From: Parvibaculum sp.
Lineage (GTDB): Bacteria; Pseudomonadota; Alphaproteobacteria; Parvibaculales; Parvibaculaceae
Length of the DNA stretch: 34,037 nucleotides
Assembly (NCBI GenBank): GCA_030682415.1
Contig: JAUXOE010000054.1
Span: forward strand, 1 to 34,037
Direction: 5' to 3'
Part shown: positions 315 through 32,780 of the stretch, piece after piece
Layout of the letters: every line of letters starts with the position of its first letter
Numbering within the stretch: the stretch's first letter is position 1
Made by a program: the position numbers and the translations under genes
The notes under the pieces: generated by a model
Databases searched by the model: none
The model's input: only the letters and a program-made list of their open reading frames with translations
Told to the model about the DNA's origin: nothing

Positions 315-755
315 ATTGGCCACGGCGTTTCCTTCCGCTCTTCGAAATTGAAAGCGGAATGCTAGGAGCGCGCCACGCGCTGCTCCCCACCCGTTCGGGC
401 GGCTCACCGCGCGCCCGTTTGCGCCGCCGCCGCACCCCGTTCGTGTAATTCCAACAAGGCCGCCAATCGCCGAACGTCGGATGCGGCTTCGGTCCGGTTT
501 CCGTTGGCAAAATTCCGCGCAATTGCCGCCGTTCGAGACGATCGAAGCCATCGCCACTCTTTAGGGCGGGGCGTCGAGCAACCCCGTCGCCCACGATCCC
601 TCGGACGGATGGATTTCGACGTCACCACGGCAACAGGGGCCGCGTCACTGGCTGGAATTATAACGATATTTAAAAAATAATTTACAAAAGAAATAATTTA
701 TGGAATGAACGAAGTGCCGGAGGGGCACGGGGGTCGGTAAGAGGGGGAGTACCGG
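315..755. other. Divergent intergenic region between the ligase and MMPL genes
   Basis: This 441-base gap holds no convincing gene. Open frames here are arginine- and proline-rich, without ribosome binding sites or recognisable domains. It must contain the promoters of both flanking genes. The right part turns abruptly AT-rich (about 656-710) and holds the conserved 30-base sequence described separately. After that sequence an 11-codon reading frame (705-740, ATG to TAA) ends 15 bases before the MMPL start; whether it is translated is unknown. Confidence 0.6.
680..709 (+). promoter_or_regulatory. Conserved 30-base upstream sequence, copy A (before MMPL cluster)
   Basis: This stretch begins atttacaaaagaaata and continues through ttatggaatgaa. 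It matches 28 of 30 bases of the sequence at 32701-32730 in the MarR/P450 gap; the two differences are at 696 and 703. It ends 46 bases before the MMPL start codon, and copy B ends 50 bases before the P450 start, so the placement is alike. It is far more AT-rich than its surroundings. The best guess is an operator for the MarR-family regulator at 32097-32612 or a shared promoter element. No clean -35/-10 pair could be assigned. Confidence 0.6.
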
Positions 756-3254
756 GTGGAGCGTCTGAGTGTTCGATTGGCCCGAGCCGCCATGAGCTAT
801 CGGTGGCTGTCGTTGCTTGTGATCGTCGCGATCACGGCATTTTTTGCGATGGGTCTGAAGAACGTCGAATTGAGGACGATCTTCAGCGACCTCCTTCCCA
901 AGACCCACCCCTTCGTTCAGACCTATACGGATCACCCGAATTTCGGCAATCCGCTGACCGTCACCGTCATGATCAAGCGCAAGGACGGGGACATCTACAA
1001 CCCCGAGACCCTTGCCAAGGTTTGGGATCTGACCCGCGACGTCGACCTGGCGCCCGGTGTCGATCACGACCAGATCCTTTCGGTCGCGACCGAGAAGGCG
1101 CGCTACGCCGAAGCAACGCCGGACGGCATCGATTCCCGTCCGCTGATGGAAGACCATCCGCCACAAACCGCTGAGGAAATCGCCGAGTTCCGTTTGCGCG
1201 TCTTGAAGGCGCCAAACGTCCGGACCTTCATGGTCTCGGAAGACGAAACAGCGACGCTGATCAATGCGACCTTCATCGAACGTCTGCTCGATTACGGTGA
1301 GACCTTCGAGTACCTGGACAAACTGGTCAAGGATGCACGCGACGACAGACACGATGTCTATATAGCCGGTCAGCCGGTGTTGACGGGCTGGGTGTATTTC
1401 TACGAACAGCAAATGTTTGGAATTTTCGCGATCACTGCAATCGCGCTGCTCCTCGCATTGCTCTTCTACATGCGCAATGTCGTCGGCGTCGTCGCGCCCT
1501 TGGTGACAAGCATTGTTGCGGCTATCTGGGGTTTCGGCTTTGTCGGCTGGCTGGGTCAGCCGATCGAGCCGCTGATCATGGTGGTACCGCTTCTGCTTGT
1601 GGCGCGGTCATTCAGTCACTGTGTGCAGTTCACTGAGCGCTACTACGAAATTCTTCATCATGTAAAAGATCGCCGTCGCGCGGCCGAGATCTCGCTCAGC
1701 GTGATGATGGCACCGGGTGTGCTCGGCATCACGACCGACGCTCTCGGCCTCTTCATCATCGGCGTCGCGCCGATTCCGGCGATGGAACGGTTTGCCCTCT
1801 TCTGCGGCTTCTGGGCGTTGATGCTCATCCCGACAAATGTCTTTCTGACGCCGCTCCTCATCATGATCCTTCCCAAGCCGCGCAATGTCGACCGTATGGT
1901 CGGTTCCGGGGATCCGGCGAACGGCTACAGCGGCATTAGGATACTGCTCGGTGCGATTGCGCGCCTCTCCATCGGCAAGACGTCGGTGCTGACGGCTATT
2001 GGCGTCGTGACATTGGCGGTTATCAGCTTCAACAAGGTTCTGGATATCAAGATCGGAAACCCTGTCGAGGGCAGCAATCTCCTGTGGGAGGATTCCGAGT
2101 TCAATGTGGCTGTTGCAAACATCAACAGTCATTTTCCGGGATTGAACACACTCGAAATCGTCTTTGAGACAAAATCGGCCGACAGTCTCGACCGGGTAAT
2201 GCGCAAGGCTGAAACGGTGCTCACCATGCACCGTCTGCAACATTTGCTTGAGAGTCAGCCAAATCCGCCCGAAGCCTCGCTTTCCTTCGCCGACTACCTG
2301 CCGGAAGCCAACCGTCTCTTCAGTGGCGGCAATCCGAAATGGGCGCCGCTTGATCATGACGATGCCGCGGTCAGTGCGGCGGCCGGGGCCTTGATGGTTG
2401 GTACCGGGCCGAAGGCCTTCCTGCATGTCGCCGATTTCGAACAGCGCAACGGGACGGTGTCGCTCTGGTACAAGGACAACAAGCAGGAAACCGTCGACGA
2501 GGCGCTGTATCAGGCCCGCGCCGCGCTGGAAATTATCGGAACCGAGTTCGATGATTTCCGCATCCGCCTCGGCAGCGGCACCATTGCCCTGCAGCAGTCG
2601 ATCAACGACACCGTCGACACTTATCAGTGGGTCATTCTGGCGCTGCTGAACGTCGTCATCCTGATTACCTGCAGCCTTGCCTATCGCTCGGTGGTCGCCG
2701 GCATTTTGTTACTGATTCCGGTCAACCTGTCGAACCTGCTGCTCGGCGCGGTGATGACGGAAATGGGCATCGGGCTCGACGTCAACACGCTGCCCATTGC
2801 GGCGATCGGCGTCGGCGTCGGCATCGATTACGGTATCTACCTGTTGAGCCGCATTTACGAGGAGTATCAGCTCCGCAAGGACATGGCGGCGGCGATCCTG
2901 ACGGCAGTCACGACGACAGGTAAGGCAATCTTCTTCACCGCGACCATTGTCCTGATCGGCATCATGCCCTGGTATTTCCTGTCCGAGTTGAAATTCCTCG
3001 CCGACATGGGACTGCTGCTGGTCATGGTGATGCTGATCAACATGATCATCGCACTGATCGTCGTGCCGCTGCTGGTGTGGCTGATCCGGCCGCGATTCAT
3101 CGATTCCAAGAAATTGCTCGTCAGCGAAGGCATCGACCTCTCGGCCCTCTCGGCCGAAGCCGATGAAAGAGCTGCGGCGCCTCGTGCAAAGGCAGCCGAG
3201 GCGGCCAGACACCCGGAGATTGATTTGAACGAGATGGCCCCGGTCCGGCCCTGA
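756..3254 (+). CDS. MMPL/RND-superfamily transporter
   Basis: This 832-residue inner-membrane protein has the two-fold RND layout. One membrane helix (about residues 14-33) is followed by a large periplasmic domain, a helix bundle (about 220-375), a second helix (about 408-426) with a second periplasmic domain, and a final helix bundle (about 620-790). The second bundle carries GVGVGIDYGIYLLSR (685-699), the MMPL signature, with an acidic residue at D691 in the expected proton-relay place. The first bundle has ARSFSHCVQFTERY instead. MMPL proteins move lipids, hopanoids or other hydrophobic compounds across the inner membrane using the proton gradient. The GTG start at 756 is chosen because GAGGGGGA lies seven bases upstream. 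It leads a cluster with DUF1329, Ycf48-like and DUF1302 genes, with gaps of 40-141 bases. The substrate is unknown. Confidence 0.85.
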   Translation: MERLSVRLARAAMSYRWLSLLVIVAITAFFAMGLKNVELRTIFSDLLPKTHPFVQTYTDHPNFGNPLTVTVMIKRKDGDIYNPETLAKVWDLTRDVDLAPGVDHDQILSVATEKARYAEATPDGIDSRPLMEDHPPQTAEEIAEFRLRVLKAPNVRTFMVSEDETATLINATFIERLLDYGETFEYLDKLVKDARDDRHDVYIAGQPVLTGWVYFYEQQMFGIFAITAIALLLALLFYMRNVVGVVAPLVTSIVAAIWGFGFVGWLGQPIEPLIMVVPLLLVARSFSHCVQFTERYYEILHHVKDRRRAAEISLSVMMAPGVLGITTDALGLFIIGVAPIPAMERFALFCGFWALMLIPTNVFLTPLLIMILPKPRNVDRMVGSGDPANGYSGIRILLGAIARLSIGKTSVLTAIGVVTLAVISFNKVLDIKIGNPVEGSNLLWEDSEFNVAVANINSHFPGLNTLEIVFETKSADSLDRVMRKAETVLTMHRLQHLLESQPNPPEASLSFADYLPEANRLFSGGNPKWAPLDHDDAAVSAAAGALMVGTGPKAFLHVADFEQRNGTVSLWYKDNKQETVDEALYQARAALEIIGTEFDDFRIRLGSGTIALQQSINDTVDTYQWVILALLNVVILITCSLAYRSVVAGILLLIPVNLSNLLLGAVMTEMGIGLDVNTLPIAAIGVGVGIDYGIYLLSRIYEEYQLRKDMAAAILTAVTTTGKAIFFTATIVLIGIMPWYFLSELKFLADMGLLLVMVMLINMIIALIVVPLLVWLIRPRFIDSKKLLVSEGIDLSALSAEADERAAAPRAKAAEAARHPEIDLNEMAPVRP

Positions 3255-3294: not shown

Positions 3295-4674
3295 ATGCGA
3301 ATTCGGAAATACGACAGAGAGTTCTCGCGCCGGACTTTCATGGAGAAGTCCCTTAAGGGGATCGCGACGGCCGGCGTGTTGTCGCCGCTTTGGCCGGAGA
3401 TTGCGAAGTCGGGCACGATCGACAAGGCTTATCCCGACGAGCTGCTATCGATCGAGATGTACACCAAAGGGCAGGTGAAGCCCGGCGATGTCATCACGGC
3501 CGACAATGTCGATGTGGTGAAGGATCTGCTCGACCCGATCGCCTACCGGCAGGTCAAGGAAATGGGTCGTCGCATCAACATCGTTGAGACGACTCGCGAT
3601 GTGACAAAACTCTTTCCACACGAATATCTCGAGGCAACGCTTCGGAACGCCGGGCGCGCGCGCTTCGACTCCGATGGCAATGTTGTCACCGACGAGGGCA
3701 AGCCGTGGATCGGTGGCAATCCATTCCCGAATGCCCAGACGGGCGAGGAGGCATTCTACAATCTGACGCTCTCCTGGGGTCGGCATGACGAGTCGGTCTA
3801 CGCTGTGCGCGACTGGGACATTTCGCCGAACGGTACGCTGTCCTACCAGTACGACTTCGTCTGGGCCGAGCAGAACACAGTCGGCCTCGTCAACAAGTCG
3901 TCGCCATATCAGGCCGGCGACGAAAGCAAGCTGCGCTATCAGGCGGTTTGGTTCACCTCGCCAACGGATGCGCGGGGAACAGCGTTCCTCAACACATGGC
4001 ACTACGACCAGCGGAAATTCCCGGACCTGCTCGGGTACCTGCCGGCCTTCAAACGCGTTCGCAACTTCCCGACCAATCAGCGGTTCGAGCCGCTGGTTCC
4101 CGGCATCACCATCTTCCTGTCGGATGCATGGGCGGCAGGCGATCCGATGCTGACCTGGGGCAACTACAAGGTCATCGGCACCAAGCCGCATCTCGGGGCT
4201 GTGTCGGGCAACTGGACCGGCAAGACGAATGCCAACTGGGAACGCGAAGTCCATGGCGGCCCGAACGGCCAGACGTTCTTCGAGGACTACAAGGAACTGA
4301 TCCCCGAAGTGCTGGTGGTGGAGGCGGAGCCTATCGGCTATCCGCGCGCACCCGTCGGAAAGAAGCGCGTCTATATCGACATGCGAAACATGATGTTCGT
4401 TTCCTATCTGACCTACGACCGGCGCGGCGAGATTTGGAAGTCCTTCGAGCCGGCATTCAGTCAGTACCAGGACGGCGACGCGTCGTTCATGGACGGCGGT
4501 CACCCGCTCTGGTCGTGGACCCATGTGCACAGTCACGACGTGCAGTCGAACCGCATGAGCCGTTTCGTGCAGGCAAAGCAGATCACCGGTGGATTCGGTC
4601 CTGAATACAACATCGGTCCGAGCATCTACGACAGGTATCTGACCGCACAGGCAATCCGTCGTTTCGGCACATAG
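3295..4674 (+). CDS. DUF1329 protein, copy 1, with twin-arginine-type signal
   Basis: This 459-residue protein belongs to DUF1329 (PF07044), a family with a LolA/LolB/LppX-like lipid-carrier fold according to structural classification recalled from memory. The N-terminus contains SRRTFM followed by a moderately hydrophobic stretch (LKGIATAGVLSPLW), which resembles a Tat export signal and predicts a periplasmic location. Family landmarks include AYPDELLSIE, WIGGNPFP, LTLSWGRHD, FPTNQRFEPL and SDAWAAGDP. The ATG at 3295 follows a strong GGAGGAAGGA. It lies 40 bases after the MMPL gene. A paralogue at 7669-9045 aligns along its whole length, with well over half of residues identical by eye. A role carrying a hydrophobic molecule between inner and outer membranes is inference from fold and neighbours. 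Confidence 0.85.
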   Translation: MRIRKYDREFSRRTFMEKSLKGIATAGVLSPLWPEIAKSGTIDKAYPDELLSIEMYTKGQVKPGDVITADNVDVVKDLLDPIAYRQVKEMGRRINIVETTRDVTKLFPHEYLEATLRNAGRARFDSDGNVVTDEGKPWIGGNPFPNAQTGEEAFYNLTLSWGRHDESVYAVRDWDISPNGTLSYQYDFVWAEQNTVGLVNKSSPYQAGDESKLRYQAVWFTSPTDARGTAFLNTWHYDQRKFPDLLGYLPAFKRVRNFPTNQRFEPLVPGITIFLSDAWAAGDPMLTWGNYKVIGTKPHLGAVSGNWTGKTNANWEREVHGGPNGQTFFEDYKELIPEVLVVEAEPIGYPRAPVGKKRVYIDMRNMMFVSYLTYDRRGEIWKSFEPAFSQYQDGDASFMDGGHPLWSWTHVHSHDVQSNRMSRFVQAKQITGGFGPEYNIGPSIYDRYLTAQAIRRFGT

Positions 4675-4729: not shown

Positions 4730-5674
4730 TTGAAGAAAGTCATTGTCACGCTTCTGGTCCTGGTCCTTGCGCCGGTCGTCGCGGCATCAGCCGCGAGCGG
4801 TGACGATCCGGCGGTCAGGCATCAGGGAACGTCGCACGACGCGTTTTTCGACATCGGGTTCGACGGCACCCGCGGGCTTGCCGTCGGCAGTCGTGGCGTG
4901 GTGATGGAAAGTGACGATAGTGGAAAGACCTGGACACACAGCACGCGTCCCGACACTGAACTGGCCCTGCTCGGCGTTGCTGCAAAGGGTGACCGGCGTT
5001 TTGTCGTCGGCCAGTCAGGGCAGGTGTTCCGGTCCATCGCGCGTGGGTGGACGTCACTCGAAAGCGGAACCGATGAACGTCTCTTCGCCGTAGCACTCGG
5101 TGCACGCCGCACCGTTGTCGCTGTCGGTGCATTCGGAACCATTTTGGTATCGCGCGACGACGGCGAAAGCTGGTCGCCGGTTAAGCTCGACTGGTTGGCG
5201 ATTCTCGGCGACGACCTCGAACCGCATTTCTATGCAGTGCATATAGACGGAAATACGGTGACCGTTGGAGGCGAGTTCGGACTGCTACTTCGTTCCCACG
5301 ATCAGGGAGCGACATGGACCGTCGTACACAAGGGCGACGCCTCGATTTTTGACTTCACTTTCAACGACAGAGGCCGCGGCCTGGCAATCGGTCAAAACGG
5401 TCTTGTTCTCCGCACCGACGACAATGGAGTGAGCTGGCACCGTATGGCGCCGCTCGGGGAAATCAATTTGCTGGGTGTCTGGTTGTCCGGTGAGTACGCA
5501 CTGACGGTCGGTATCCGTGGTGCGTTTTCCAGTCGCGACAGCGGGCGCAGCTGGAAGGAGTTGACGGGGAGTGACGTCGACACGGCCTGGTATCAGGCGG
5601 TCGCTTCGCCTGCCGGCCGGGACACGCCCATCGTCGTTGGGCATCACGGCCGCATTCTGGAGATAAGGGAGTGA
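4730..5674 (+). CDS. Ycf48-like beta-propeller protein, exported
   Basis: This 314-residue protein has an N-terminal signal peptide (MKKVIVTLLVLVLAPVVAAS) and then repeated propeller blades. Each blade ends in a BNR/Asp-box-like pattern: SDDSGKTW, SRDDGESW, SHDQGATW, TDDNGVSW and SRDSGRSW, each preceded by a glycine-rich G..G strand. This is the layout of the photosystem II assembly factor Ycf48/HCF136 family. In non-photosynthetic bacteria the family is found as periplasmic proteins beside MMPL, DUF1302 and DUF1329 genes (established genomic association, from memory). The TTG start at 4730 is preceded by GGGAGGAG at a good distance. A scaffold role linking the transporter to the outer-membrane barrel is speculation. 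Confidence 0.8.
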   Translation: MKKVIVTLLVLVLAPVVAASAASGDDPAVRHQGTSHDAFFDIGFDGTRGLAVGSRGVVMESDDSGKTWTHSTRPDTELALLGVAAKGDRRFVVGQSGQVFRSIARGWTSLESGTDERLFAVALGARRTVVAVGAFGTILVSRDDGESWSPVKLDWLAILGDDLEPHFYAVHIDGNTVTVGGEFGLLLRSHDQGATWTVVHKGDASIFDFTFNDRGRGLAIGQNGLVLRTDDNGVSWHRMAPLGEINLLGVWLSGEYALTVGIRGAFSSRDSGRSWKELTGSDVDTAWYQAVASPAGRDTPIVVGHHGRILEIRE

Positions 5675-5739
5675 GCCGCTGGAAGGCTCGGGGAAATTTT
5701 GGTTCCGACGGGTTCGGATTATCCAAGGGAGGGGAGAAA

Positions 5740-7527
5740 ATGTCTCGTAAGCCTAACGCAGTCGCCGGGGGACTTGTATCCTGCGCGGCGCTGATATTGG
5801 GGGCTGTCTCGTTCACACAAGAGGCAAGCGCTGTCGATTTCAACGTTCAAGGATTTATCCGGCAGGAACCGGCGATCAAGCTCACCAACGAGGAAAACCC
5901 GTTCAATCAGCGGGGGAACTTGTTCAATGGCGTCACGGTAACACAGGATTCAACGCTGCTTGGTGGTGCGGTAACGGCGACAACACGCCCTATCGCCGGA
6001 GCCGATAACGACTTCAATCTGATGGCAACACGGGTTGAGGTCGATTTCCAGGCGAGTTTCAATCAGAACTGGACAGGCTTCGCGCGCCTGCGCGGTTATT
6101 TCCAGCCTGACATTTTCGACAGCTACGGCGATCCCGAATATTTCGCCACACCCTTCTGGGGTGGCGACCGGGCCACCTTGTTCGAAGTCAATGGCCGCAA
6201 CTACATGCTCGACCTGCCGGCTTTCTACCTCGACTACGCCGACGGTCCGCTCTGGTTACGCTTTGGCAATCAGCAGATCGCCTGGGGTGAATCGCTGTTC
6301 TTCCGTGTTCTCGACGTGCCAAACGGTCTCGATCTGCGCCGTCATCTGCTGCTCGATCTGGTTGCCGAGGAGTTCGCAGACGAACGTGTTTCGGCACCCG
6401 GCATACGCGGATCTTATCGCGTCTCGAACGATCTCGAAGTCGAGGCGTTCACGCAGCTTTTCAATCCGTCGATTCTGGCAAACCCAGACACGCCCTATAA
6501 CGTGATCCCTTCGCAGTTCACCATTCACCAGCAGGAAGGCTTCGATGACGCGAAAGGGGCGATGAATTTTGGCACACGCGTTCAGGCCCAGTTCGGCGAT
6601 GTTGCGTTGCAGTTCATCGCCGTCAATCGACGCAATCCGGACGGTGTTTTTCACTGGACGGAGTCAGGTATAGATCGTGACATTCCGGGACTGCCGGGCA
6701 GCGGCGCCGTTCTCGCGATGACGCCTTTCGAGGTCAGCCCCACCGGCGTCTATTCGGCGACCGAGTGGTTCAAATATGCCGGTATGGCCCGCCTGAACGG
6801 CTTGACCGGATTTAACGCCGCGATCAACGAGTTCCCGGCAACGGCTTTCCTCGGCGCGGTGCCGATGCCCAACCAGACATTGGCGGCGTCGGAACTCGAT
6901 CTCTTCTTTCAGCTAAGCCCGCTTCGCGGTCATATCACGCGCATCTATCCGCGTGAGAGCATCTTCGGCATCGGCGCCAATTATATTGTCAAGGCTGGTC
7001 CGGAATCGTTCCTCGATCAGTTGGTAATTCGAAGCGAATTCACCTACACGCCTAACAAGAAGTTTACCAGCCCCGATCTCAGCCGTAGCCTGATCGAAGA
7101 AGACGAGTATGTCGCCTCGCTGGTCTTCGAAAAGTATCACCGCTTCACGCAGGACTTCCCTGCGACCTTCATGGTGTTGCAATACTTGCACAAATCGGAA
7201 AGCGATCTGTTCGGCCGTCACTTGAGCGGCATGGGTGCGTCCGGCGACAGGACGACGGGCCTGCCGACCGGCAACAGCTCCTTCAACGCCGTTGCCTTCG
7301 CGCTTCAGCAGCCCTTCCCGAACCTGATCTGGCGGGCGGACTTTTCGGTTCTCTACGATGTGAAGGGTGGGGCGTTGATTCAGCCCGGCCTCAGGTGGAA
7401 GCCGAACGAGGCGTGGACAGCCGAAGTCTTTGCCAACATCACACTGAGTGACGGTGGCAACGACGACATTGTCAGCACGATCGACTGGGCGGACGAACTG
7501 GCATTCCGCATTACCTACCAGTTCTGA
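5740..7527 (+). CDS. DUF1302 outer-membrane beta-barrel protein
   Basis: This 595-residue protein belongs to the DUF1302 (PF06980) family. It has a signal peptide with a likely cut after residue 31 (EASA|VDF). The body is rich in alternating aromatic strands, and the protein ends in a phenylalanine (ITYQF), the usual outer-membrane barrel assembly signal. Landmarks are LDYADGPLWLRFGNQQIAWGE and NGLDLRRHLLLD. The frame is open back to 5671, but the ATG at 5740 is preferred because GGGAGGGGAG lies just upstream and the signal peptide starts there. It is probably the outer-membrane component of the MMPL/DUF1329 system. Whether it imports or exports cannot be told from sequence. Confidence 0.85.
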   Translation: MSRKPNAVAGGLVSCAALILGAVSFTQEASAVDFNVQGFIRQEPAIKLTNEENPFNQRGNLFNGVTVTQDSTLLGGAVTATTRPIAGADNDFNLMATRVEVDFQASFNQNWTGFARLRGYFQPDIFDSYGDPEYFATPFWGGDRATLFEVNGRNYMLDLPAFYLDYADGPLWLRFGNQQIAWGESLFFRVLDVPNGLDLRRHLLLDLVAEEFADERVSAPGIRGSYRVSNDLEVEAFTQLFNPSILANPDTPYNVIPSQFTIHQQEGFDDAKGAMNFGTRVQAQFGDVALQFIAVNRRNPDGVFHWTESGIDRDIPGLPGSGAVLAMTPFEVSPTGVYSATEWFKYAGMARLNGLTGFNAAINEFPATAFLGAVPMPNQTLAASELDLFFQLSPLRGHITRIYPRESIFGIGANYIVKAGPESFLDQLVIRSEFTYTPNKKFTSPDLSRSLIEEDEYVASLVFEKYHRFTQDFPATFMVLQYLHKSESDLFGRHLSGMGASGDRTTGLPTGNSSFNAVAFALQQPFPNLIWRADFSVLYDVKGGALIQPGLRWKPNEAWTAEVFANITLSDGGNDDIVSTIDWADELAFRITYQF

Positions 7528-7668
7528 GACCGGTCGATCCAAGGCTCCGCCCGGAGCGTCGGCGCAGGATAGCAGGCCTTTTCAGGATGAGGCGCTGTGT
7601 CCCCCCAAAGCGCACCGGCGATCCGGGCGGATGCTGTTTCCGTGTGACGATACGCGGTGGAGAATCGG

Positions 7669-9045
7669 ATGTATTTGCGGCGCTATACGCATGACTATTC
7701 TCGCCGCCTGTTTCTTGAGCGGCTGGCGGCAGGCGTCGTCAGCCTGGGCGTGACATCACCCCTCTGGCCGGTGCTCGCCGCGACGGGCGATGCGTCGTCC
7801 GCCTATCCCGACGAGCTTCTGTCGATTGAGGCCTATACGAAGGGTGCCATCTCGACCGGCGGCCGGATTGATGCCGGCAATGTCGAACTCGTCAGGGAAT
7901 TGCTGGACCCGATCCGCTTTCGCCAGATCAAGGAAATGGGCCGCGTTCTCGAGATTGTTGCGCCGACGACAGAACTGATGGAACTGAGCCCCTGCGAATA
8001 TCTGGAGGCAACGTTCCGCAACAGCGGCAAGGCGCGTTTCGACGCGCGCGGCAATGTTGTGACGGAGGAGGGTGAGCCCTGGATCGGCGGCAACCCGTTT
8101 CCAAACCCGAAAAGTGCGATCGAGATTTTCGCGGGCCTCACACTGAGCTGGGGCCGCCACGATATCTCTGTCTACGCAACGAAGGAATTCGATCTCGCGC
8201 CGAACGGGTCGATCGACTATCGCTACGAGAGCGTCTGGGCAGAACTTGCGCCGGTGGGGCGCGTTGCCGTCGAACCCATGCCCTATTGGAACGAATTCAA
8301 GGACAAGCTGCGCTTCCAGTCGGTCGCCTTCACCTATCCCAATGAGGAGAAGGGGACCTCGTTCCTGAACATCTGGCCCTACGACCAGAACGAGTTTCCC
8401 GAACTCTACGGATACCTGCCCGCCTTCAAGCGCATCCGGCGCTTTCCCACCAACCAGCGCTTCGAGCCGTTGATCGCCGGCTCCACGCTCTATTTATCGG
8501 ATGCCTGGGCGGCTGGAGACCCGCTGCTGACCTGGGGCAACTACCGCCTTGTGCATCAGGGACCGGCACTGGCGGCGCTCTCCGGCGGTTGGGCGGCCGA
8601 TCATCCGAATTGGGAGCACACGACCCATGGCGGTCCGAATGGCGACAGCTTCTGGGACACGAAGGTTCAACTCGTACCGGAAGCGTTGGTCGTCGAGGCC
8701 GAGCCGGTCATGTTTCCGCGTGCGCCGGTCGGCAAGAAGCAGGTCTGGTTCGACGCGCGGACATTGTTGCCTTTTGTGATGGTCTCATTCGACCGCAAGG
8801 GCGAGGTATTTCGGTCGTTCGACGGGGCTTTCTCGCAGTACCGCAAAGGCGATTCGGTCGTGATGGACGGAAAGCATCCCTACTGGTCATGGACGCATGT
8901 TCATGCCCACAACATCCAGACCAACCGCATCACGCGCCTTGAACAGGTCAAGCAGGTCAGGGGTGGTCACACGATGATGGTCAACGACCAGTCGGCTTAT
9001 GATCGCTATCTGACTACCCATGCGCTCCGTCGACTGGGCATATAG
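7669..9045 (+). CDS. DUF1329 protein, copy 2, with twin-arginine-type signal
   Basis: This 458-residue protein is the second DUF1329 member of the cluster, full-length relative to copy 1. The start chosen is the ATG at 7669, not the in-frame GTG at 7657. GGTGGAGA precedes the ATG, and the resulting N-terminus (MYLRRYTHDYSRRLFLERL) lines up residue for residue with copy 1 (MRIRKYDREFSRRTFMEKS). SRRLFL plus GVVSLGVTSPLW again resembles a Tat signal. It shares AYPDELLSIE, LSWGRHD, FPTNQRFEPL and SDAWAAGDP with copy 1. The two are divergent enough to be an old duplication that has been kept, so they may bind different partners or substrates. The gene is 141 bases after DUF1302. Confidence 0.85.
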   Translation: MYLRRYTHDYSRRLFLERLAAGVVSLGVTSPLWPVLAATGDASSAYPDELLSIEAYTKGAISTGGRIDAGNVELVRELLDPIRFRQIKEMGRVLEIVAPTTELMELSPCEYLEATFRNSGKARFDARGNVVTEEGEPWIGGNPFPNPKSAIEIFAGLTLSWGRHDISVYATKEFDLAPNGSIDYRYESVWAELAPVGRVAVEPMPYWNEFKDKLRFQSVAFTYPNEEKGTSFLNIWPYDQNEFPELYGYLPAFKRIRRFPTNQRFEPLIAGSTLYLSDAWAAGDPLLTWGNYRLVHQGPALAALSGGWAADHPNWEHTTHGGPNGDSFWDTKVQLVPEALVVEAEPVMFPRAPVGKKQVWFDARTLLPFVMVSFDRKGEVFRSFDGAFSQYRKGDSVVMDGKHPYWSWTHVHAHNIQTNRITRLEQVKQVRGGHTMMVNDQSAYDRYLTTHALRRLGI

Positions 9046-10878: not shown

Positions 10879-11391
10879 TTGCCTGGAGCGGTAAGAGCCT
10901 ATGTCAGGTATGTCGAGGCCGTGAATCGCGTGGTCGGTCGGCTCGCCATGTATTTGATCTTTGTGATGATCGGCATCCTGCTCTATTCCTCCTTTTCGCG
11001 AACCGTCTACAACGTGCCCATCGTCTGGGTGATGGAGATGGGCCAGTTTCTGCTGGCCGCCTATTACCTTCTGGGCGGCGCTTACGCCATGCAGATCGAC
11101 GGTCACGTCCGGATGGACCTTCTCTATGGCCGGCTGTCGACGCGCAAGAAGGCCTTCACCGACACCATCACCGCCTTCTTCCTGATCTTCTACCTCGTGG
11201 TGCTGCTGATGGGTGGCATATCGAGCACCGAATATGCGCTCACCTACGACCAGAAAAATTACACCGCCTGGGGCCCGCCGCTGGCGCCCATCAAGATCAT
11301 CATGACGTTCGGCATCTTCCTGATGCTGCTGCAGGCCATCGCGATCTTCTTCCGGGACCTTGCGCGCGTTCGCGGTGAGGAACTCGAATGA
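10879..11391 (+). CDS. dctQ: TRAP transporter small membrane subunit (DctQ type)
   Basis: This 170-residue protein has four membrane helices: RLAMYLIFVMIGILLYSSF, VWVMEMGQFLLAAYYLLGG, a helix around ITAFFLIFYLVVLLMGG, and IIMTFGIFLMLLQAIAIF. This is the DctQ/YiaM fold that pairs with DctM. The sequence VDGHVRMDLLY-like block (IDGHVRMDLLYGRLS) is the most conserved part of DctQ proteins. The start is uncertain. TTG at 10879 has a G-rich stretch upstream, while the in-frame GTG at 10921 has CGAGG close by. Its end overlaps the next gene by four bases (ATGA), which suggests translational coupling. Confidence 0.85.
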   Translation: MPGAVRAYVRYVEAVNRVVGRLAMYLIFVMIGILLYSSFSRTVYNVPIVWVMEMGQFLLAAYYLLGGAYAMQIDGHVRMDLLYGRLSTRKKAFTDTITAFFLIFYLVVLLMGGISSTEYALTYDQKNYTAWGPPLAPIKIIMTFGIFLMLLQAIAIFFRDLARVRGEELE

Positions 11392-12710
11392 GCTACCAGC
11401 TGATCACGCTGCTGATGTTCTCGTCGCTGATGCTGCTGCTGCTCACCGGCCAGCGGGTCTTCGGCGCGATCGGTTTCGTCGCCGCGGCCGCAGCACTGCT
11501 GCTCTGGGGCGATGGCGGCTCTGAAATGCCGTTCAACGCCAGCTTCATCGTCCTCAACTGGTATCCGCTACTGACGCTGCCACTCTTCATCTACATGGGC
11601 TACATGCTGTCTGAATCCGGCATCGCCAACGATCTCTACAAGGCATTTCACGTCTGGATGGGCCCGCTCAGCGGAGGCTTGGCGATCGGTACCATCGGCC
11701 TGATGGTCGTGATCTCGGCCATGAACGGATTGAGCGTCGCCGGCATGGCAATCGGGGCCAGCATCGCGCTGCCGGAGCTGTTGCGGCGCGGTTATGACAA
11801 GGTCATGGTGACCGGCGTCATCCAGGCCGGCAGTTCGCTCGGCATTCTGATCCCGCCAAGCGTCGTCCTCGTCCTCTATGCGATGATTGCCCGACAGCCA
11901 GTATTGCAACTCTGGCTCGCAGGCGTCGTTCCCGGACTGATCATGGCGACCTTCTTCGCCATCTACATCTACATCCGCTGCCGGCGCAACCCTGCGCTCG
12001 CGCCCGTTTTGCCGCCCGAGGACCTTGATGTCAGTTTGAAGGAAAAGCTTCTGCTGCTGCGCGCCGGCATCGCGCCGCTGGCGATTTTTCTTGCGATGAT
12101 GGGGCTCTTCCTGATGGGTGTGACGAGCCTCGTCGAAAGTGCGGCGGTCGGCGCGGCGGCTGCGACGCTGGTGGCTCTTTTCAAGCGCCGTCTCACCGGG
12201 CATGTGCTCGACGAAACGATGCGCAAGACGCTCAGCATCACCTGCATGTTCATGTGGATCATTCTTGCAGCGCTATGTTTCGGCGCGGTCTATGACGGCC
12301 TCGGCGCCAAGCGTGCCATCTCGGCGCTGTTTCTCGAAACATGGGATCTCACCCCGTGGGAAATCCTCATTATGATGATGGTCTCCTTCATCGTTCTCGG
12401 CATGTTCCTCGATGATACGGCAATGTTGGTCATCGTCGCGCCGCTCTACGTCCCGCTGGTTATCAGTCTCGGGTTCAATCCGATCTGGTTCGGTGTGCTC
12501 TACGTGATGACCTGCCAGGTGGCCTACATCACCCCGCCTTTTGGCTATAATCTGTTCCTGATGAGGGCAATGGCGCCCCCGGAGATAACGCTTGTCGACA
12601 TCTACCGGTCAATCGTACCGTTTGTATTCATTATGCTGTTCACGATCGGTATCGTAATGACTTTTCCTCAGCTGGCCCTTTGGCTGCCTGATTTGTACGC
12701 AGGACGATGA
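11388..12710 (+). CDS. dctM: TRAP transporter large permease subunit (DctM type)
   Basis: This 440-residue protein has about 12 membrane helices and DctM signatures: MGYMLSESGIANDLYKAF near the N-terminus, GLSVAGMAIGASIALPELLRRGYD, IQAGSSLGILIPPSVVLVLY, and GMFLDDTAMLVIVAPLYVP near the C-terminus. It catalyses sodium-driven uptake of an organic acid handed over by the periplasmic DctP protein. It follows dctQ with a four-base overlap and is followed, after 156 bases, by dctP. The full set forms one transporter. The substrate cannot be read from this subunit. Confidence 0.9.
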   Translation: MSYQLITLLMFSSLMLLLLTGQRVFGAIGFVAAAAALLLWGDGGSEMPFNASFIVLNWYPLLTLPLFIYMGYMLSESGIANDLYKAFHVWMGPLSGGLAIGTIGLMVVISAMNGLSVAGMAIGASIALPELLRRGYDKVMVTGVIQAGSSLGILIPPSVVLVLYAMIARQPVLQLWLAGVVPGLIMATFFAIYIYIRCRRNPALAPVLPPEDLDVSLKEKLLLLRAGIAPLAIFLAMMGLFLMGVTSLVESAAVGAAAATLVALFKRRLTGHVLDETMRKTLSITCMFMWIILAALCFGAVYDGLGAKRAISALFLETWDLTPWEILIMMMVSFIVLGMFLDDTAMLVIVAPLYVPLVISLGFNPIWFGVLYVMTCQVAYITPPFGYNLFLMRAMAPPEITLVDIYRSIVPFVFIMLFTIGIVMTFPQLALWLPDLYAGR

Positions 12711-16089: not shown

Positions 16090-16163
16090 TGGGGGATCGT
16101 CTAACGGTAGGACTGCAGACTCTGACTCTGCCTATCTAGGTTCGAATCCTAGTCCCCCAGCCA
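16090..16163 (+). tRNA. tRNA-Gln (anticodon CTG)
   Basis: The acceptor stem TGGGGGA pairs with TCCCCCA (16153-16159), followed by G and an encoded CCA. The anticodon arm GCAGA-CTCTGAC-TCTGC gives anticodon CTG, reading CAG. The T-loop GGTTCGAATCC is standard. The 3' half of the gene is the integration site of the island that follows, and the gene is left intact. Confidence 0.95.
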
Positions 16164-16165
16164 GC
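16146..16165 (+). repeat. attL: 20-bp direct repeat within tRNA-Gln
   Basis: The sequence atcctagtcccccagccagc covers part of the T-arm, the 3' acceptor strand, CCA and two further bases. The identical 20 bases recur at 23679-23698. Flanking bases differ at both copies, so 20 bp is the whole identity. Confidence 0.9.
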
Positions 16166-16230
16166 GCAACCCTAAATCCTTGATTGCATTGATTTTCTTC
16201 ACCGCTCACCCCGTTCAGGGGTGATTTTCT

Positions 16231-17958
16231 ATGCGACGCTCACACAAACGCTCACACAAGTGCTCACACATTGCTCTAAAACGTGGGGTCTTCTATTACC
16301 GCCGACGCCTCCCACAACCCCATTCCGGCGATCTAGCCCTGTCTCTTGGTACATGCGCCTACAGCGAGGCCGTGCGCCTTGTCCGGCTTCTGGACGCTGC
16401 CTTTGAGACTGTTTGTATGAGAGACGCAATTCAGCGCCCCGACCTGCGTGAAATCCTCCGGGCCTTTCTGAACGACCAGCTTGAGGGAGACCGCTGCCTT
16501 CATCTCGGCACGATGCCCGGACAGCCCGTGTATGCCCTTGCCGGGACGTTCGATGCGCTCAACGTGTCGCCCCAAGAGGCGGACCATGAAATCCTAGCGT
16601 TCCATCAATCAAGGTACGGGGATGCGATCATCAATCGCGACATTGGCGAGGTCACGCCGCTTGTCGACAGTCTCATGGCGCAGCATGGCCTGTCGGGACC
16701 GGAGACGCGCATAGAGCTTGGTCTGGGGCTTCTGGGCGCACTCCGCGACCTTGCCGACGTGCAGATGCAGCGCGTGGCTGGAAGCCTTGCCGCACAAACT
16801 CCGGGCGACGGAAGCACCGCGTCCGCAGCCCCGCCGCAGTTGCCGCCGCCCGCCGCTTCGCTGGACGCCGGGCCGGTCTTCACCGGACGCCGCCTTTCTG
16901 AGTTGCTTCCCCGGTTTGTGGAAGCCCAGCGCGGCGAGGAATGGCGGGTCCATACCGAGCGCCAAAACATGAAGACCTATCAAATGTTCATGGAGGTTTG
17001 CGATGACCTGCCGGTCGACGCATACACCTCAAAGGACCACGTCGTCCCCTTTATGGAGGTGTTGAAGCGGATGCCGGCGACGCACGGCAAGTCCGACAAG
17101 GACAAAGCCTTGAGTCTGGCGGAAATAATCGACCGCGCCAATGCGACGGATGCGCAGCGCATCACGCAAAAGACCCGCAACCGCCATAAGGCCGCGTTGG
17201 GCAGCCTCTTTGACTGGTTGATCCATCGCGCCCACGAGCGCGGCGAGCCAAACCCCGCGCACGGTGTGCGAACGGGTAGTCGCGGGGGCAAGGGGAGCAA
17301 GGGTGCTAACCGGAAAGTCTGGGAGGGCGACAAGCTACGGGCGCTCTTCTCCGGCCCCGCGCATACCGGGTCACACGCGTTCTTCAGATCGAAGCCCGGC
17401 CCGCACATCATCAAGGATGCTTACTACTGGCTCCCGTTGCTAGGGCTGTACCAAGGCGCGCGGCTTGAAGAGCTTGCACAGTTGCAGACTGAGGATGTGC
17501 GCGAGGTCGACGGCATCTGGTGTCTCGACATCAACGATGCCGATTTCAAGAACCTCAAGAATGAACAGTCGCGGCGGCTTGTTCCGGTCCATCGCAAGCT
17601 GCTTGCACTGGGCTTCATCGACCACGCGCGCGCCGCAGCTCCAGAGAGAGGGGGCCGCGTATTCCCAGACCTGAAACCGGGCGGGGCCGACAAGAAGGCC
17701 AGCTATGATTTCACGCGCAAGTTCGGCGCGTATCGCAAGGGGATCGGCCTCTATGAACGCTGGCTCGACTTCCACTCTCTGCGGCACACGTTCATTTCCA
17801 AATTGGCGGACGAGTCGGTCCCCGACACTACGATTGCGACAATCGCCGGGCATGAAGGGATCACCCAGACGGCGCAATATGCGAAGTCAAAGAAGCCCTC
17901 GGTCGCTACGTGTTTTGCCGCGATCAATCTCGCGGAGTGGAACGAAATGCCCTTCTGA
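16231..17958 (+). CDS. Tyrosine site-specific integrase of the island
   Basis: This 575-residue tyrosine recombinase integrates and excises the island at tRNA-Gln. The catalytic domain is C-terminal: the first arginine is in GLYQGARLEELAQLQ, the HxxR box in HSLRHTF, the second histidine in IAGHEG, and the nucleophilic tyrosine in TQTAQYAKSKKP. The N-terminal part (LKRGVFYYRRRLP) is the usual opening of phage-type integrases with an N-terminal DNA-binding region, followed by a long linker and a SAM-like core-binding domain around residues 215-360. Codons 2-14 are written by the arm-type repeats (RRSHKRSHKCSHI), so translation may really begin further in; no good ribosome site precedes 16231. 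Length is above the usual 400 residues because of the N-terminal region. Confidence 0.9.
   Translation: MRRSHKRSHKCSHIALKRGVFYYRRRLPQPHSGDLALSLGTCAYSEAVRLVRLLDAAFETVCMRDAIQRPDLREILRAFLNDQLEGDRCLHLGTMPGQPVYALAGTFDALNVSPQEADHEILAFHQSRYGDAIINRDIGEVTPLVDSLMAQHGLSGPETRIELGLGLLGALRDLADVQMQRVAGSLAAQTPGDGSTASAAPPQLPPPAASLDAGPVFTGRRLSELLPRFVEAQRGEEWRVHTERQNMKTYQMFMEVCDDLPVDAYTSKDHVVPFMEVLKRMPATHGKSDKDKALSLAEIIDRANATDAQRITQKTRNRHKAALGSLFDWLIHRAHERGEPNPAHGVRTGSRGGKGSKGANRKVWEGDKLRALFSGPAHTGSHAFFRSKPGPHIIKDAYYWLPLLGLYQGARLEELAQLQTEDVREVDGIWCLDINDADFKNLKNEQSRRLVPVHRKLLALGFIDHARAAAPERGGRVFPDLKPGGADKKASYDFTRKFGAYRKGIGLYERWLDFHSLRHTFISKLADESVPDTTIATIAGHEGITQTAQYAKSKKPSVATCFAAINLAEWNEMPF
16238..16271 (+). repeat. 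Left cluster of integrase arm-type repeats
   Basis: Three copies of GCTCACACAA (the third ends in T) start at 16238, 16250 and 16262, exactly 12 bases apart. Two more lie near the right end (23597 and 23609) with the same spacing. In addition, CCGCTCACC at 16202-16210 is the exact reverse complement of GGTGAGCGG at 23621-23629. Such paired clusters at both ends are expected for integrase or excisionase binding. They overlap the first codons of the integrase frame. Confidence 0.65.
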
Positions 17959-17961
17959 GAT

Positions 17962-17980
17962 GCCCGGACGTGCGGGCTTT
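17962..17980 (+). terminator. Short hairpin after the integrase gene
   Basis: GCCCG at 17962-17966 pairs with CGGGC at 17973-17977, followed by TTT, four bases after the integrase stop. The stem is only five base pairs, so this is a tentative intrinsic terminator. Confidence 0.35.
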
Positions 17981-18111
17981 CCGTTGCCAAACAAGCTCAT
18001 TCTCAGGCACCTTTACGCACTTGCCGGAAATAGCGGGCCACGGTAGCGCGGGCGGCGGCGGTTGGCGGATTGAACGCCGTCCCGCCGCATTTGCCATCCG
18101 CAAGCGTTCCT

Positions 18112-18480
18112 TCACTTTTTTAGGGGCCGCCCCCAATAATCTGAACCGCCCGCTTTTTCCGCCGCTGCTTTCGCCGCCGCTGCTTTCGCCGCCACCGCCG
18201 CGTGCACGTCGCGTTCATTCACTTCCCATGCCGCCAGCATATCCGGATTCCCTTTGAGAAGAATTTTCACGTCCGCAAACTCTCCCTTCAACTGTTCAAC
18301 ACCCCAGCCAAGCGCGCCTGCAATGATAAGGGCGTAACCGAAGTAAATGGCGTTCTGGAAAAGCGCCATCGCGTGAAAGTTGACGATACCCAAACGAGCG
18401 TCGCCCGGCATAAAGAGCAACAGAAGCCAGCCGATGACCGCAATAAGAAAACCAGCTTTCGAGACGTTGTTTGCAAACAT
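18112..18480 (-). CDS. Small membrane protein of the island, unknown function
   Basis: This 122-residue protein has two predicted membrane helices (about residues 9-25, FLIAVIGWLLLLF, and 42-60, NAIYFGYALIIAGALGWG). An alanine-rich, probably helical tail follows (AAVAAKAAAAKAAAEKA). The ATG is preceded by a run of seven G residues that can serve as ribosome site. I do not recognise a family. It reads against the integrase gene, from which it is separated by about 150 bases with no other gene. Confidence 0.6.
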   Translation of the reverse strand: MFANNVSKAGFLIAVIGWLLLLFMPGDARLGIVNFHAMALFQNAIYFGYALIIAGALGWGVEQLKGEFADVKILLKGNPDMLAAWEVNERDVHAAVAAKAAAAKAAAEKAGGSDYWGRPLKK

Positions 18481-18598
18481 TTCGATTCCCCCCCAATCAA
18501 CTCTTCAATCGGACATTCATGCACGATTTCAGATTCTTTGGAAAGCACGGCAACCGACCGGGGACAGGTCGAGACTTCACAACCCTAGCGAGGCCGCT

Positions 18599-18796
18599 TC
18601 ACGCGATGAACGGCACCGGCACCGCCTCACTCCGCACGTCCGTCCACCGATCAAAGCACGTCGCGCCGCGCTGAACCCACGCCTGCCCAATGCCCGCCAC
18701 GCGGATAAACAGAACCCCGTGAAAGTCCGTCTCGAATACGAAAGCGCGCCCGAAGTGGATGCTGAACGGGACGCCAATGTTGATGAAAAAGTGCAT
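18599..18796 (-). CDS. Hypothetical 65-residue protein of the island
   Basis: The frame is open further upstream, but GAAGGAAG precedes the ATG at 18796, which gives a 65-residue product beginning MHFFINIGVPFSIHFGRAFVFE. It is rich in aromatic residues and predicted beta strands, with one cysteine and no recognisable domain. Its location in the island next to other small leftward genes and the clean ribosome site are the only support. Confidence 0.45.
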   Translation of the reverse strand: MHFFINIGVPFSIHFGRAFVFETDFHGVLFIRVAGIGQAWVQRGATCFDRWTDVRSEAVPVPFIA

Positions 18797-19097
18797 GGGG
18801 AGCTTCCTTCTGTTGAACCGGAAGCCCCCCATTAGTGACACAAAACGCGCCCCGTCAACGGTTGCACGGGTGGATAGATCGCGGCCCGGAAATGCCCTGA
18901 GCGCGCCGGGACATAGGGCCGGACCTACCCACCCGTGAGAACCCGTCAAAATCTCAAGCGGCCCGGCAAAGCGGCTTCGCGCCTTTGGAAACGGGCGTTT
19001 GTCACTCACGGTGTTGCCCTGAGGTGTTCAAATTGAACAGCCCGGCGAAGCGCCCGCTGCGGCCCAGCGCGTTTCCTGGGGCGACGCTGGGGATGCG
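18797..19097. other. Intergenic region with inverted repeats
   Basis: No supported gene lies in these 301 bases. There are two dyads. CACGGGTGG (18865-18873) pairs with CCACCCGTG (18929-18937) across 55 bases. GTTCAA-A-TTGAAC forms a 13-base palindrome at 19026-19038. The latter could be an operator. The region lies downstream of the ParB-like gene and upstream of the 65-residue gene. Confidence 0.4.
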
Positions 19098-19850
19098 CTA
19101 GAAGTCGGCATGTTGCTCCGGCACGGTCCAAGTGCCCCCCGCCTCCAACTCCGCTAGAACTTCCCTAAGGTCGGTAATAGCGCGGCCCCGCCGGGCGGGT
19201 GCCGTGAGGCCGGTTGCTGCCGCACGCGCGCTCTTGAGGTGATGCGCCACGCTGGCCGCCAATGCCTCTTGCTGGTCAATGCGCGGAAACTCTGCACCCG
19301 CCGCTGCCACCGGATCAAGGCCGCCCATTTGCCGCGCAACCTTCGGGTGGTCGGACAGCATCCAGTGCCGGACGGTTGTGTGCTGGACGCGGTTGCCCAG
19401 CATCGCAGCAATCTCCCGATAGCTGTGCAGGCGACCGCGTGCCTTGATGTGCCGCCGCGACTTAATGAGCGCGTTGAACACGCGCCTGAGACCGGCGCGG
19501 TCCAGCGGGACGCCGTGGTCAAGGTTCGCTTGCGCGGCCATCCAAAGGGCCGTCTGTGCGGTGACGCCTTGATAGACTTGAGCATCGACGTGCGCTTGTC
19601 CGTTGCGCTCAAGCGCGGCCAACCGATGCCAGCCGTCGGTAACGATAGGCGCACCGCCAACAACCGCGACGGACACAGGCGGGAGCACGCTACCGGCCTT
19701 GTAAGCGTTGGCGTACTCCGCGACCTTCGCCAAGTTTAGGCGGACGTCGCCCTTCCGGTCGCGCCGCATTTGATATTCCGGGAGCCGCACAAGGTCCGCG
19801 ACTAAGAGTGTGCGGGTGACAGGTGGGCTGCCGCCGTCAGGCTTTCTCAT
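19098..19850 (-). CDS. ParB/Spo0J-like nuclease-domain DNA-binding protein
   Basis: This 250-residue protein has an N-terminal ParB/sulfiredoxin-type domain: LVADLVRLPEYQMR, then LPPVSVAVVGGAPIVTDGWHRLAALERNG, where GWHRLAA corresponds to the family's GxHRLxA nucleotide-binding box. A helix-turn-helix follows (SYREIAAMLGNRVQHTTVRHWML, about residues 150-172). The start at 19850 is chosen because TTGGAAC lies upstream. No ParA partner is present, so it is more likely a phage- or island-type regulator or accessory protein than a partition protein. It is last in a leftward group with two HNH-like genes; a 140-base gap separates it from them. Confidence 0.75.
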   Translation of the reverse strand: MRKPDGGSPPVTRTLLVADLVRLPEYQMRRDRKGDVRLNLAKVAEYANAYKAGSVLPPVSVAVVGGAPIVTDGWHRLAALERNGQAHVDAQVYQGVTAQTALWMAAQANLDHGVPLDRAGLRRVFNALIKSRRHIKARGRLHSYREIAAMLGNRVQHTTVRHWMLSDHPKVARQMGGLDPVAAAGAEFPRIDQQEALAASVAHHLKSARAAATGLTAPARRGRAITDLREVLAELEAGGTWTVPEQHADF

Positions 19851-19990
19851 TGATGTTCCAATCATTGGTTTGTGTTTCGCCGACGCCCGTGCGGTGTCCG
19901 CCAGAGGCAACGCGAACGCGCGGTGAAGGTGTCGCTGAAGTGCATTGAGTGGGTGCCGTGCGGACGCAAACGCGCCGCCCAACGCGTCCG

Positions 19991-20341
19991 CTACGGGTTG
20001 AGCCGGAACCACTCGTAAATCGCGTCAGTGCCCCAAGGCGGTTCGGGCTGCGGCATGACGCACGCCTCACCCGCAGTGAATACCCGCTGAAGGTTCGCGC
20101 GGCGGCAGTCCAGCACGTCGCCATTCAGATGCTTGGCGAACGCGGGGGACTGATAACCGCCGACACGCCACCGCGCGACCTGCACCGTAAATGCCTTCCC
20201 GCGCCCACGCATGATGAAAAAGGGGCGGCGGTGGCCTGCGGACGCCCGGTAGATGTTACGGCCTCGGCGTATGAGCCACTGCGCCGCGCAGTCGTCCAGC
20301 AACAGGTAATCGTTCGAGCCGACGATAAGGAGGCGCATCAT
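19991..20341 (-). CDS. HNH-like protein, copy 2
   Basis: This 116-residue protein carries AKHLNGDVLDCRRANLQRV (about residues 69-87). It fits the HNH core pattern H-x-N-G-D-x-x-D-x-R-x-x-N-L seen in phage and homing-type HNH nucleases. One histidine of the usual HH pair is replaced by lysine. The N-terminal part (about residues 1-60) has the short beta-rich layout common before this core. Its ATG overlaps the stop of the upstream HNH-like gene by four bases, which implies translational coupling. It could cut DNA or act only in DNA binding; sequence alone does not settle this. Confidence 0.6.
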   Translation of the reverse strand: MMRLLIVGSNDYLLLDDCAAQWLIRRGRNIYRASAGHRRPFFIMRGRGKAFTVQVARWRVGGYQSPAFAKHLNGDVLDCRRANLQRVFTAGEACVMPQPEPPWGTDAIYEWFRLNP

Positions 20342-20739
20342 GCGTGAACGCTCCCGCTAGCGGCACGCTCAACAAGCGCCGCGTCCGCACGCCGCCCGAA
20401 GCCGGGGCGCAACACAAGGTTATCGCGCCGCAGGTTGCGCGTGTCACTGTCGAGATACCGGACGCGCTGGCCGGGCCGCGCCGCCATCAAAACGCGCGCG
20501 ACGGTTACGAGGTTGCCCGCCACGCTGTTGAGCGCGGCGCGGACATACGCGGTGCCGCCTGTCCCGTCCCTGTTGAGGCACCAATTTGGGGAGAGGCCGG
20601 CGGCAAGCAGGCGCTCATAGTCCGCCGGGAGAATGCGGGCCACGCCGCCGTCACGCGCAAGCGGGATCAATAGCACCGCCGCGCCGTCCCTAGGATCGAC
20701 GCCGGGGACAGGACTGCGGGAAGTTCGGGGTTTCGTCAT
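20338..20739 (-). CDS. HNH-like protein, copy 1, lacking the catalytic histidine
   Basis: This 133-residue protein has RVRYLDSDTRNLRRDNLVL near residues 94-112. It has the shape of an HNH core, but tyrosine stands where the conserved histidine is expected, so nuclease activity is doubtful. AAGGAAC lies five bases before the ATG at 20739. It heads the leftward operon and overlaps the next HNH-like gene by four bases. Its last codons (LVERAASG) are written by a 26-bp sequence that is repeated exactly at 22293-22318, so its 3' end may have been remade by a recombination event. Confidence 0.55.
   Translation of the reverse strand: MTKPRTSRSPVPGVDPRDGAAVLLIPLARDGGVARILPADYERLLAAGLSPNWCLNRDGTGGTAYVRAALNSVAGNLVTVARVLMAARPGQRVRYLDSDTRNLRRDNLVLRPGFGRRADAALVERAASGSVHA
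20353..20378 (+). repeat. 26-bp direct repeat, left copy
   Basis: This 26-base sequence starts cccgctagcggcacgctc and is identical to 22293-22318, which lies 1940 bases to the right in the same orientation. It contains the perfect palindrome CCGCTAGCGG. It lies inside the 3' end of the first HNH-like gene. Between the copies sit that gene's 5' part, its promoter, a small gene and the serine recombinase. Confidence 0.85.
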
Positions 20740-20877
20740 AGGTGTTCCTTGTGGCTGGCCCATAGGAAAGCGAGCGCGCGCCCCTGTGAGGCGGCGAACG
20801 GGCCGTGATGGTGATTTGAGGGGGACGTGAGCGTGCGGCTGCGGTGCCCGCGCTTACTACGGATCGGGAATTGTAGG

Positions 20878-20890
20878 TCACACGGTGTGA
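20878..20890 (-). promoter_or_regulatory. Palindromic operator with adjacent -10 box for the HNH/ParB operon
   Basis: TCACAC-G-GTGTGA is a perfect 13-base palindrome. On the minus strand it is followed three bases later by TACAAT, a good -10 hexamer, so the palindrome falls in the spacer between -35 and -10 of a leftward promoter. No clear -35 is seen. The distance to the first HNH-like start is about 130 bases. A repressor binding here would control the operon; which protein does so is unknown. Confidence 0.45.
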
Positions 20891-21128
20891 GACACGCGGA
20901 CGCGGCAAGCGCCGCCCGGCCCCGTCACTCCCTATCTGTAGAGGTGCAACCCAATACGGGCGGAGGTGTTGCCCGCCCCGGCGGCTGCGTTATCGGCTGG
21001 ACACCCGGCGGTGATAGCGCCTCACGTCTGCGCCAGCGGGTGAGCGCGTCCGCCCTGACTCTGCGCGGGCCGCTGGGACGCTCTTCCGCCCCGGCACGCG
21101 GCCCCGTTCCCCGGCCCGCGCCGCTGCC

Positions 21129-21158
21129 GCCCAGCGGGCACTGTGGCGTCTCTCAGCG
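21129..21158 (+). repeat. 30-bp imperfect direct repeat, left copy
   Basis: It matches 27 of 30 bases of 21511-21540. The two copies flank the 52-residue gene. Weaker similarity continues to the left of both copies. Confidence 0.7.
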
Positions 21159-21290
21159 CCTGCCAAAACCGCCGAGGTACCGATACTCAGCCGGAAATCG
21201 TTATCGCTAGAGGGCGGTCTGCGAATAAACGTTCCCTCGCAGCGGTCGTGACAACACGCTCCTCCGACACCTCTAAGGAGTATCAACCGA

Positions 21291-21449: not shown

Positions 21450-21510
21450 GTCAGCAGTGCCGGAGGTGGGGACACGCTTCACCTCCGCACGGCCCTCCGC
21501 GCCGACACCC

Positions 21511-21540
21511 GCCCAGCGGACACTGCGGCGTCTCTTAGCG
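21511..21540 (+). repeat. 30-bp imperfect direct repeat, right copy
   Basis: It differs from 21129-21158 at three positions. It ends seven bases before the stop of the leftward serine recombinase gene, so it would lie in that gene's 3' untranslated region. Confidence 0.7.
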
Positions 21541-32700: not shown

Positions 32701-32730
32701 ATTTACAAAAGAAATAGTTTATGAAATGAA
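32701..32730 (+). promoter_or_regulatory. Conserved 30-base upstream sequence, copy B (MarR/P450 gap)
   Basis: It begins atttacaaaagaaata and is identical at 28 of 30 positions to 680-709. CATTT at 32700 and AAATG at 32724-32728 form an inverted pair, as expected for a dimeric regulator. It lies 50 bases before the P450 start and about 90 bases from the MarR start. A 12-codon frame (32726-32764) follows, in the same relative place as the 11-codon frame after copy A. Confidence 0.6.
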
Positions 32731-32780
32731 TAAAAAGCCGGACGCCAGAACCGGCCTTGGATGAAATCGGGGAGGGAAGA

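Follow-up and report, generated by a model that had tools for sequence, protein, structure and literature searches.

The stretch of Parvibaculum sp. DNA analysed here (34,037 nucleotides, hereafter the window) carries an operon for an MMPL/RND-type transporter and its putative envelope partners near one end, and a MarR-family regulator gene with a divergent cytochrome P450 gene at the other (Table 1). One copy of a short AT-rich element, copy A, precedes the MMPL gene (GTG start at 756), and a second, copy B, is placed 32 kb away in the gap that separates the MarR-type gene (GTG at 32612, minus strand) from the P450 gene (ATG at 32781); the element-to-start gaps are 45 and 49 bp. Region 16090-22216, between the two copies, holds a tRNA gene and, after it, genes for an integrase of phage type (16231-17958) and a resolvase (21548-22216), which suggests insertion of a mobile element at the tRNA. 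A search of the window for riboswitches and other known RNAs gave a tRNA only.

Table 1. Features of the window discussed in the text
Feature	Position	Strand	Remarks
Copy A palindrome O1	680..694	+	ATTTACAAAAGAAAT; 11/12 consensus positions; conserved island in the four-species clade
Copy A palindrome O2	696..710	+	ATTTATGGAATGAAC; 11/12 consensus positions; centre lies 16 bp from that of O1
Tiny frame A, 11 codons	705..740	+	judged chance; ATG-AAC-TAA in G001, G013 and G023
MMPL/RND-type (HAE3-like) inner-membrane transporter	756..3254	+	first operon gene; Pfam MMPL 1.2e-28; below the cut-off of TIGR00921 (HAE3)
DUF1329 (LolA-like) periplasmic protein	3295..4674	+	Pfam 1.9e-71
YCF48/BNR-type propeller protein	4730..5674	+	Pfam PSII_BNR 2.1e-19
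DUF1302 outer-membrane protein	5671..7527	+	Pfam 1.1e-25
Second DUF1329 protein	7657..9045	+	Pfam 7e-55
MarR-family regulator, 171 aa	32097..32612	-	GTG start; ribosome-binding site AAGGACG; Pfam HTH_27 above cut-off
Copy B palindrome O1	32701..32715	+	ATTTACAAAAGAAAT; element in 28/29 MarR/P450 gaps at >=21/24
Copy B palindrome O2	32717..32731	+	GTTTATGAAATGAAT; element in 28/29 MarR/P450 gaps at >=21/24
Tiny frame B, 12 codons	32726..32764	+	judged chance; in relatives absent, or 3, 9, 79 or >300 codons
Cytochrome P450	32781..34037	+	Pfam p450; last residues missing at the contig end; ~84% identical to PDB 9lw0

A preliminary description of the window had reported a 30-base match between bases 680-709 (copy A, ATTTACAAAAGAAATAATTTATGGAATGAA) and 32701-32730 (copy B, ATTTACAAAAGAAATAGTTTATGAAATGAA), about 50 bases before each downstream gene and, for copy B, in the gap between a MarR gene and its divergent neighbour. 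Direct comparison gives the same 28 of 30 identities, and the two placements hold as well. The copies are real, but the conserved unit proved to be one base longer (680-710 and 32701-32731) and to consist of a pair of palindromes. The description had also called for a genome-wide search allowing mismatches, and this turned up no unrelated places: in the 2.97 Mb genome, copies A and B are the sole matches with at most 3 mismatches to their joint 30-mer pattern (0 for the reversed control), and the same is true of a 22-base core at the same tolerance. Within the window, 2 copies were observed against 0.00 expected from 100 shuffles.

Comparison of 29 MarR/P450 gaps resolves the element into 31 bp: two 15-bp imperfect palindromes of consensus RTTTAYnnnRTAAAY, each with a 3-bp centre, separated by a 1-bp spacer and thus 16 bp apart from centre to centre. 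An additional dyad runs through the linker base and spans the whole element. Both the two-palindrome reading and the consensus were partly derived from the sequences they describe, and the palindromes are imperfect; one site, that before the MMPL gene of genome G007, was left out of the consensus derivation and was recovered by a single-palindrome search. We set aside a different reading, as an 11-bp inverted repeat centred in O1, since that repeat is strong in only part of the genus. Copy A shows a possible weak third unit (window 664-678) 16 bp upstream of O1, and the G007 site may have one too; if so, the stoichiometry may exceed two dimers.

When the consensus was required in tandem, at no fewer than 21 of its 24 specified positions, a search of 40 Parvibaculaceae genomes returned 33 sites: 28 in MarR/P450 gaps, 5 upstream of MMPL genes, with no site at any other place. 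A single site came from the reversed control in the same 40 genomes, and a base-composition model leads one to expect about 0.002 tandem sites per 3.5 Mb. The 22-base core, at 2 mismatches or fewer, occurs in 24 of the 40 family genomes, always between the MarR gene and the divergent P450 gene except at the sites that precede MMPL genes (copy A and those of G001, G013 and G023). Protein searches place single-copy orthologues of the MarR regulator and of the P450 in exactly the same 29 of the 40 genomes, and in all 29 they are divergent neighbours with the element in the gap. Conservation in close relatives, which the preliminary description had proposed as a check, is borne out: the element scores at least 21/24 in 28 of the 29 genomes carrying both genes, as against 0 of the 11 that have neither MarR nor P450 (Fisher 5e-9, a value that ignores the kinship of the genomes). 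The single genome missed at that threshold, G019, has a weaker version. The site lies in the gap between a marR gene and its divergent neighbour, as is characteristic of an autoregulatory operator, and is absent where the regulator is absent.

Searches for a wider regulon with a loose 22-mer gave matches at control level only. The exact 15-mer palindrome recovered the MarR/P450 sites, the G007 MMPL site and a few scattered others, the latter at about the level of the control. Because matches at looser thresholds drop to control level, weak further sites may exist. Among 380 genomes from outside the family, 11 match at 2 mismatches, not far above the 7 of the reversed control; these matches fall mostly in AT-rich DNA, and none of the 11 has a MarR, P450 or MMPL homologue alongside.

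The regulator is predicted to have the MarR fold. HTH_27 is recognised by Pfam in 21 of 22 orthologues, and an AlphaFold model built from the 22 orthologues (mean pLDDT 81) finds its best PDB matches by Foldseek in the MarR family, as expected for a MarR-type winged helix. The solved regulators YusO, MhqR, BpsR, MftR and MarR share this fold by Foldseek, at only 13-23% identity and TM-scores of about 0.5-0.65. Named records with close relatives of the gene belong to Parvibaculum, Tepidicaulis and Rhodobiaceae/Parvibaculaceae assemblies. A 45% identical relative is encoded on a Sphingopyxis macrogoltabida plasmid (NZ_CP013345.1), where it sits amid acyl-CoA and TonB receptor genes, a neighbourhood that hints at lipid-like ligands for this group of regulators; neither the box nor a P450 gene adjoins it.

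For the P450, a solved structure is available through the orthologue in G014, which is identical over 393 aa to PDB 9lw0 and comes from a genome that we take to be Parvibaculum lavamentivorans DS-1. The G014 gene has the same MarR/operator arrangement as in the window, but that genome differs in having an MMPL operon without the operator. Our literature search found no paper naming 9lw0, and no physiological substrate was found in the papers searched. In G014 (12225-12641, L185) and G032 (11217-11624, L190), a SnoaL-like gene directly follows the P450 gene, and the two are probably joined in one transcript; the contig of the window stops at the P450. The most similar P450 (98%) is found in G018, which has the MarR/P450 operator and lacks a close MMPL orthologue (loci L127 and L186), which implies loss or gain of the transporter cluster at a nearby point in the tree.

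MMPL orthologues (at least 68% identity) are present in 13 of the 29 genomes that have MarR and P450, and in none of the rest, and the operator precedes the gene in 5 of the 13: in G000, G001, G013 and G023, which form a four-species clade, and in the distant G007. Within the clade the element, at 84-87% identity, stands out as an island from flanks of about 45-56%. G007 has the most diverged MMPL orthologue; its tandem box (ATTCACAGAAGTAAT-T-GTTTACAAAGTAAAT) is found roughly 300 bp ahead of the MMPL frame, which is unlinked to the P450 gene at a distance of 1.15 Mb. The different position of the box suggests independent gain or site turnover. The other 8 MMPL orthologues, including that of G014, have no recognisable operator within 900 bases, despite the MarR gene in the genome. 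The connection between P450 and MMPL is thus lineage-specific, confined to the four-species clade and one distant species, and the 8 operator-less loci, together with G018, imply that it is not obligatory. The core of what had been claimed, a control sequence joining P450 and MMPL, is supported (it is conserved, specific and co-occurs with MarR), though the joining does not extend to most MMPL orthologues. A second conserved noncoding block (CTTTAGGGCGGGG and its neighbours, window 546-600) lies between an acetoacetyl-CoA ligase gene and MMPL; its core is found at all 13 MMPL loci, with about 90% identity in the four-species clade.

Our preferred reading, to which we assign a probability of roughly 80%, is that the element is the operator of the adjacent MarR protein, which would repress its own gene and the P450 gene as well as the AmeABCD-like transporter operon of some species. 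The comparisons establish how the site is built, that it is conserved and specific, and that it co-occurs with MarR; binding by this protein, repression rather than activation, the number of dimers and the ligand we infer along the following lines. Two regulator dimers would each occupy one of the neighbouring 15-bp palindromes and, with centres 16 bp (about 1.5 turns) apart, would face nearly opposite sides of the helix. Free of ligand, the regulator would hold down its own gene, the P450 gene that diverges from it and, in this species, also the operon MMPL-DUF1329-YCF48-DUF1302-DUF1329 that follows copy A. Binding of a hydrophobic compound, for which the substrate of the P450 or the cargo of the transporter is plausible, would free the regulator, and transport and oxidation would be switched on together. 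The placement of the sites 45-49 bp ahead of the start codons is consistent with repression through promoter overlap. The tight tie of the element to the MarR gene across relatives suggests that one sensor may control both the P450 and the transport operon, and a single putative ligand governing the two, as the preliminary description had proposed, is plausible.

That a different regulator, encoded elsewhere, binds the element and controls MarR, P450 and MMPL is unlikely. The MarR protein is assigned to the site from neighbourhood and co-occurrence only, and the P450 co-occurs just as perfectly; however, the element is restricted to genomes that have this MarR, and the site has dyad symmetry, is of the right size and resembles the box of PchR/YvmB. 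A divergent neighbour is, moreover, a common target of MarR-type regulators. Somewhat less probable still is that the copies resemble one another through promoter architecture, as a shared -35/-10 promoter of a particular sigma factor: the AT-rich composition, the distance to the starts, a TTTACA that is invariant in nearly all sites and a weak sigma-70-like match in the copy A region (669-697) would all suit a promoter, but promoters of one class would be expected ahead of many genes, whereas this element occupies just two places in the genome, and none of the genomes that lack the MarR gene has it. G030 carries it inverted relative to the MarR and P450 genes, which fits a dyad operator, the symmetric site of a regulator, and would not be tolerated by a directional promoter. 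Restriction to MarR/P450 and MMPL sites, together with this inversion, rules against a housekeeping or special promoter as the explanation; the element may well overlap a promoter, as operators do.

We consider it very unlikely that copy A is a piece of the P450 promoter region, duplicated by chance or carried along by hitch-hiking, with no function at MMPL. Its 28/30 identity to copy B, their presence on one 34 kb contig and the operator's occurrence at only 5 of 13 MMPL loci would agree with such an origin, but copy A is a conserved island between diverged flanks in four species, copies A and B in G001, G013 and G023 differ from each other yet stay tandem, and G007 has a separate tandem box before an MMPL gene far from its P450 locus. 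Least probable, to the point of being almost negligible, is that the tiny reading frames noticed after each copy are leader peptides controlling the downstream genes. Both frames, of 11 and 12 codons, do exist here and stop 15-16 bases short of the gene start; in relatives, however, the frame from the same ATG has 2, 3, 9, 79 or >300 codons, or is absent. Because the ATG sits within O2 in both copies, and nearly every relative departs in both length and stop, we attribute the frames to chance; the short upstream frame that attenuation calls for is not conserved, and as a feature of the element the frames did not survive comparison.

Returning to the adjacent MarR protein as the regulator, the MMPL-DUF1329-DUF1302 systems are mostly uncharacterised, their cargo unknown in most cases, and one of them is here linked, by an operator that is shared and highly specific, to a P450 with an orthologue of solved structure that is open to assay. 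Given the shared operator, a ligand found for the small MarR protein would indicate the likely substrate of P450 and transporter alike, and the main use of the element is as a clue that the two handle related compounds. It also offers a compact case of regulon growth, in which a family-wide, one-site MarR-P450 regulon gained a transporter target in some lineages. We go further tentatively, giving it just short of an even chance: a very small dedicated MarR regulon (the regulator itself, the P450 and the MMPL-DUF1329-DUF1302 machine) would co-switch transport and oxidation of one hydrophobic substrate, the transporter having been recruited more than once through gain of a tandem operator.

The closest known system is that of PchR (YvmB) and the P450 CypX in Bacillus subtilis: this MarR-type regulator is divergent from the P450 operon yvmC-cypX (promoters yvmC-cypX and yvmBA), includes yvmA in its regulon and recognises a 14-bp box (GTTYMMYMGTAAAC), with palindromic boxes in the shared gap, several near one promoter, and CypX serves pulcherriminic acid synthesis (PMC4992311). 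Here too a MarR gene is divergent from a P450 gene, palindromes lie in the gap, and the half-site GTAAAY is similar to that box; the likeness is one of gene arrangement and box, and orthology of the regulators is not part of it. Unlike the 14-bp box, the palindrome described here has 15 bp with a 3-bp centre, no pair of PchR/YvmB boxes 16 bp apart is reported, and that system has no MMPL/DUF1302 component. No YvmC cyclodipeptide synthase accompanies the P450, the gene found beside it in G014 and G032 being the SnoaL-like one. Since the two systems differ in the length of the box, in their partner genes and in the type of transporter, we regard our system as working like PchR/YvmB, and do not place it in the PchR/YvmB regulon. 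For the transporter, the counterpart is AmeABCD of Castellaniella defragrans, which brings together an HAE3-type RND protein, a DUF1329 protein, a YCF48-like protein and a DUF1302 protein and is linked to the metabolism of apolar compounds (PMC6394551). The word 'regulator' is absent from that paper, which makes no link to a P450. The operon behind copy A has the same gene content (HAE3/MMPL, DUF1329, YCF48-like and DUF1302), although its gene order differs and it includes an extra, second DUF1329 gene. Transport of apolar compounds is the function given to AmeABCD in the literature, and it is by gene content that we liken the operon behind copy A to it.
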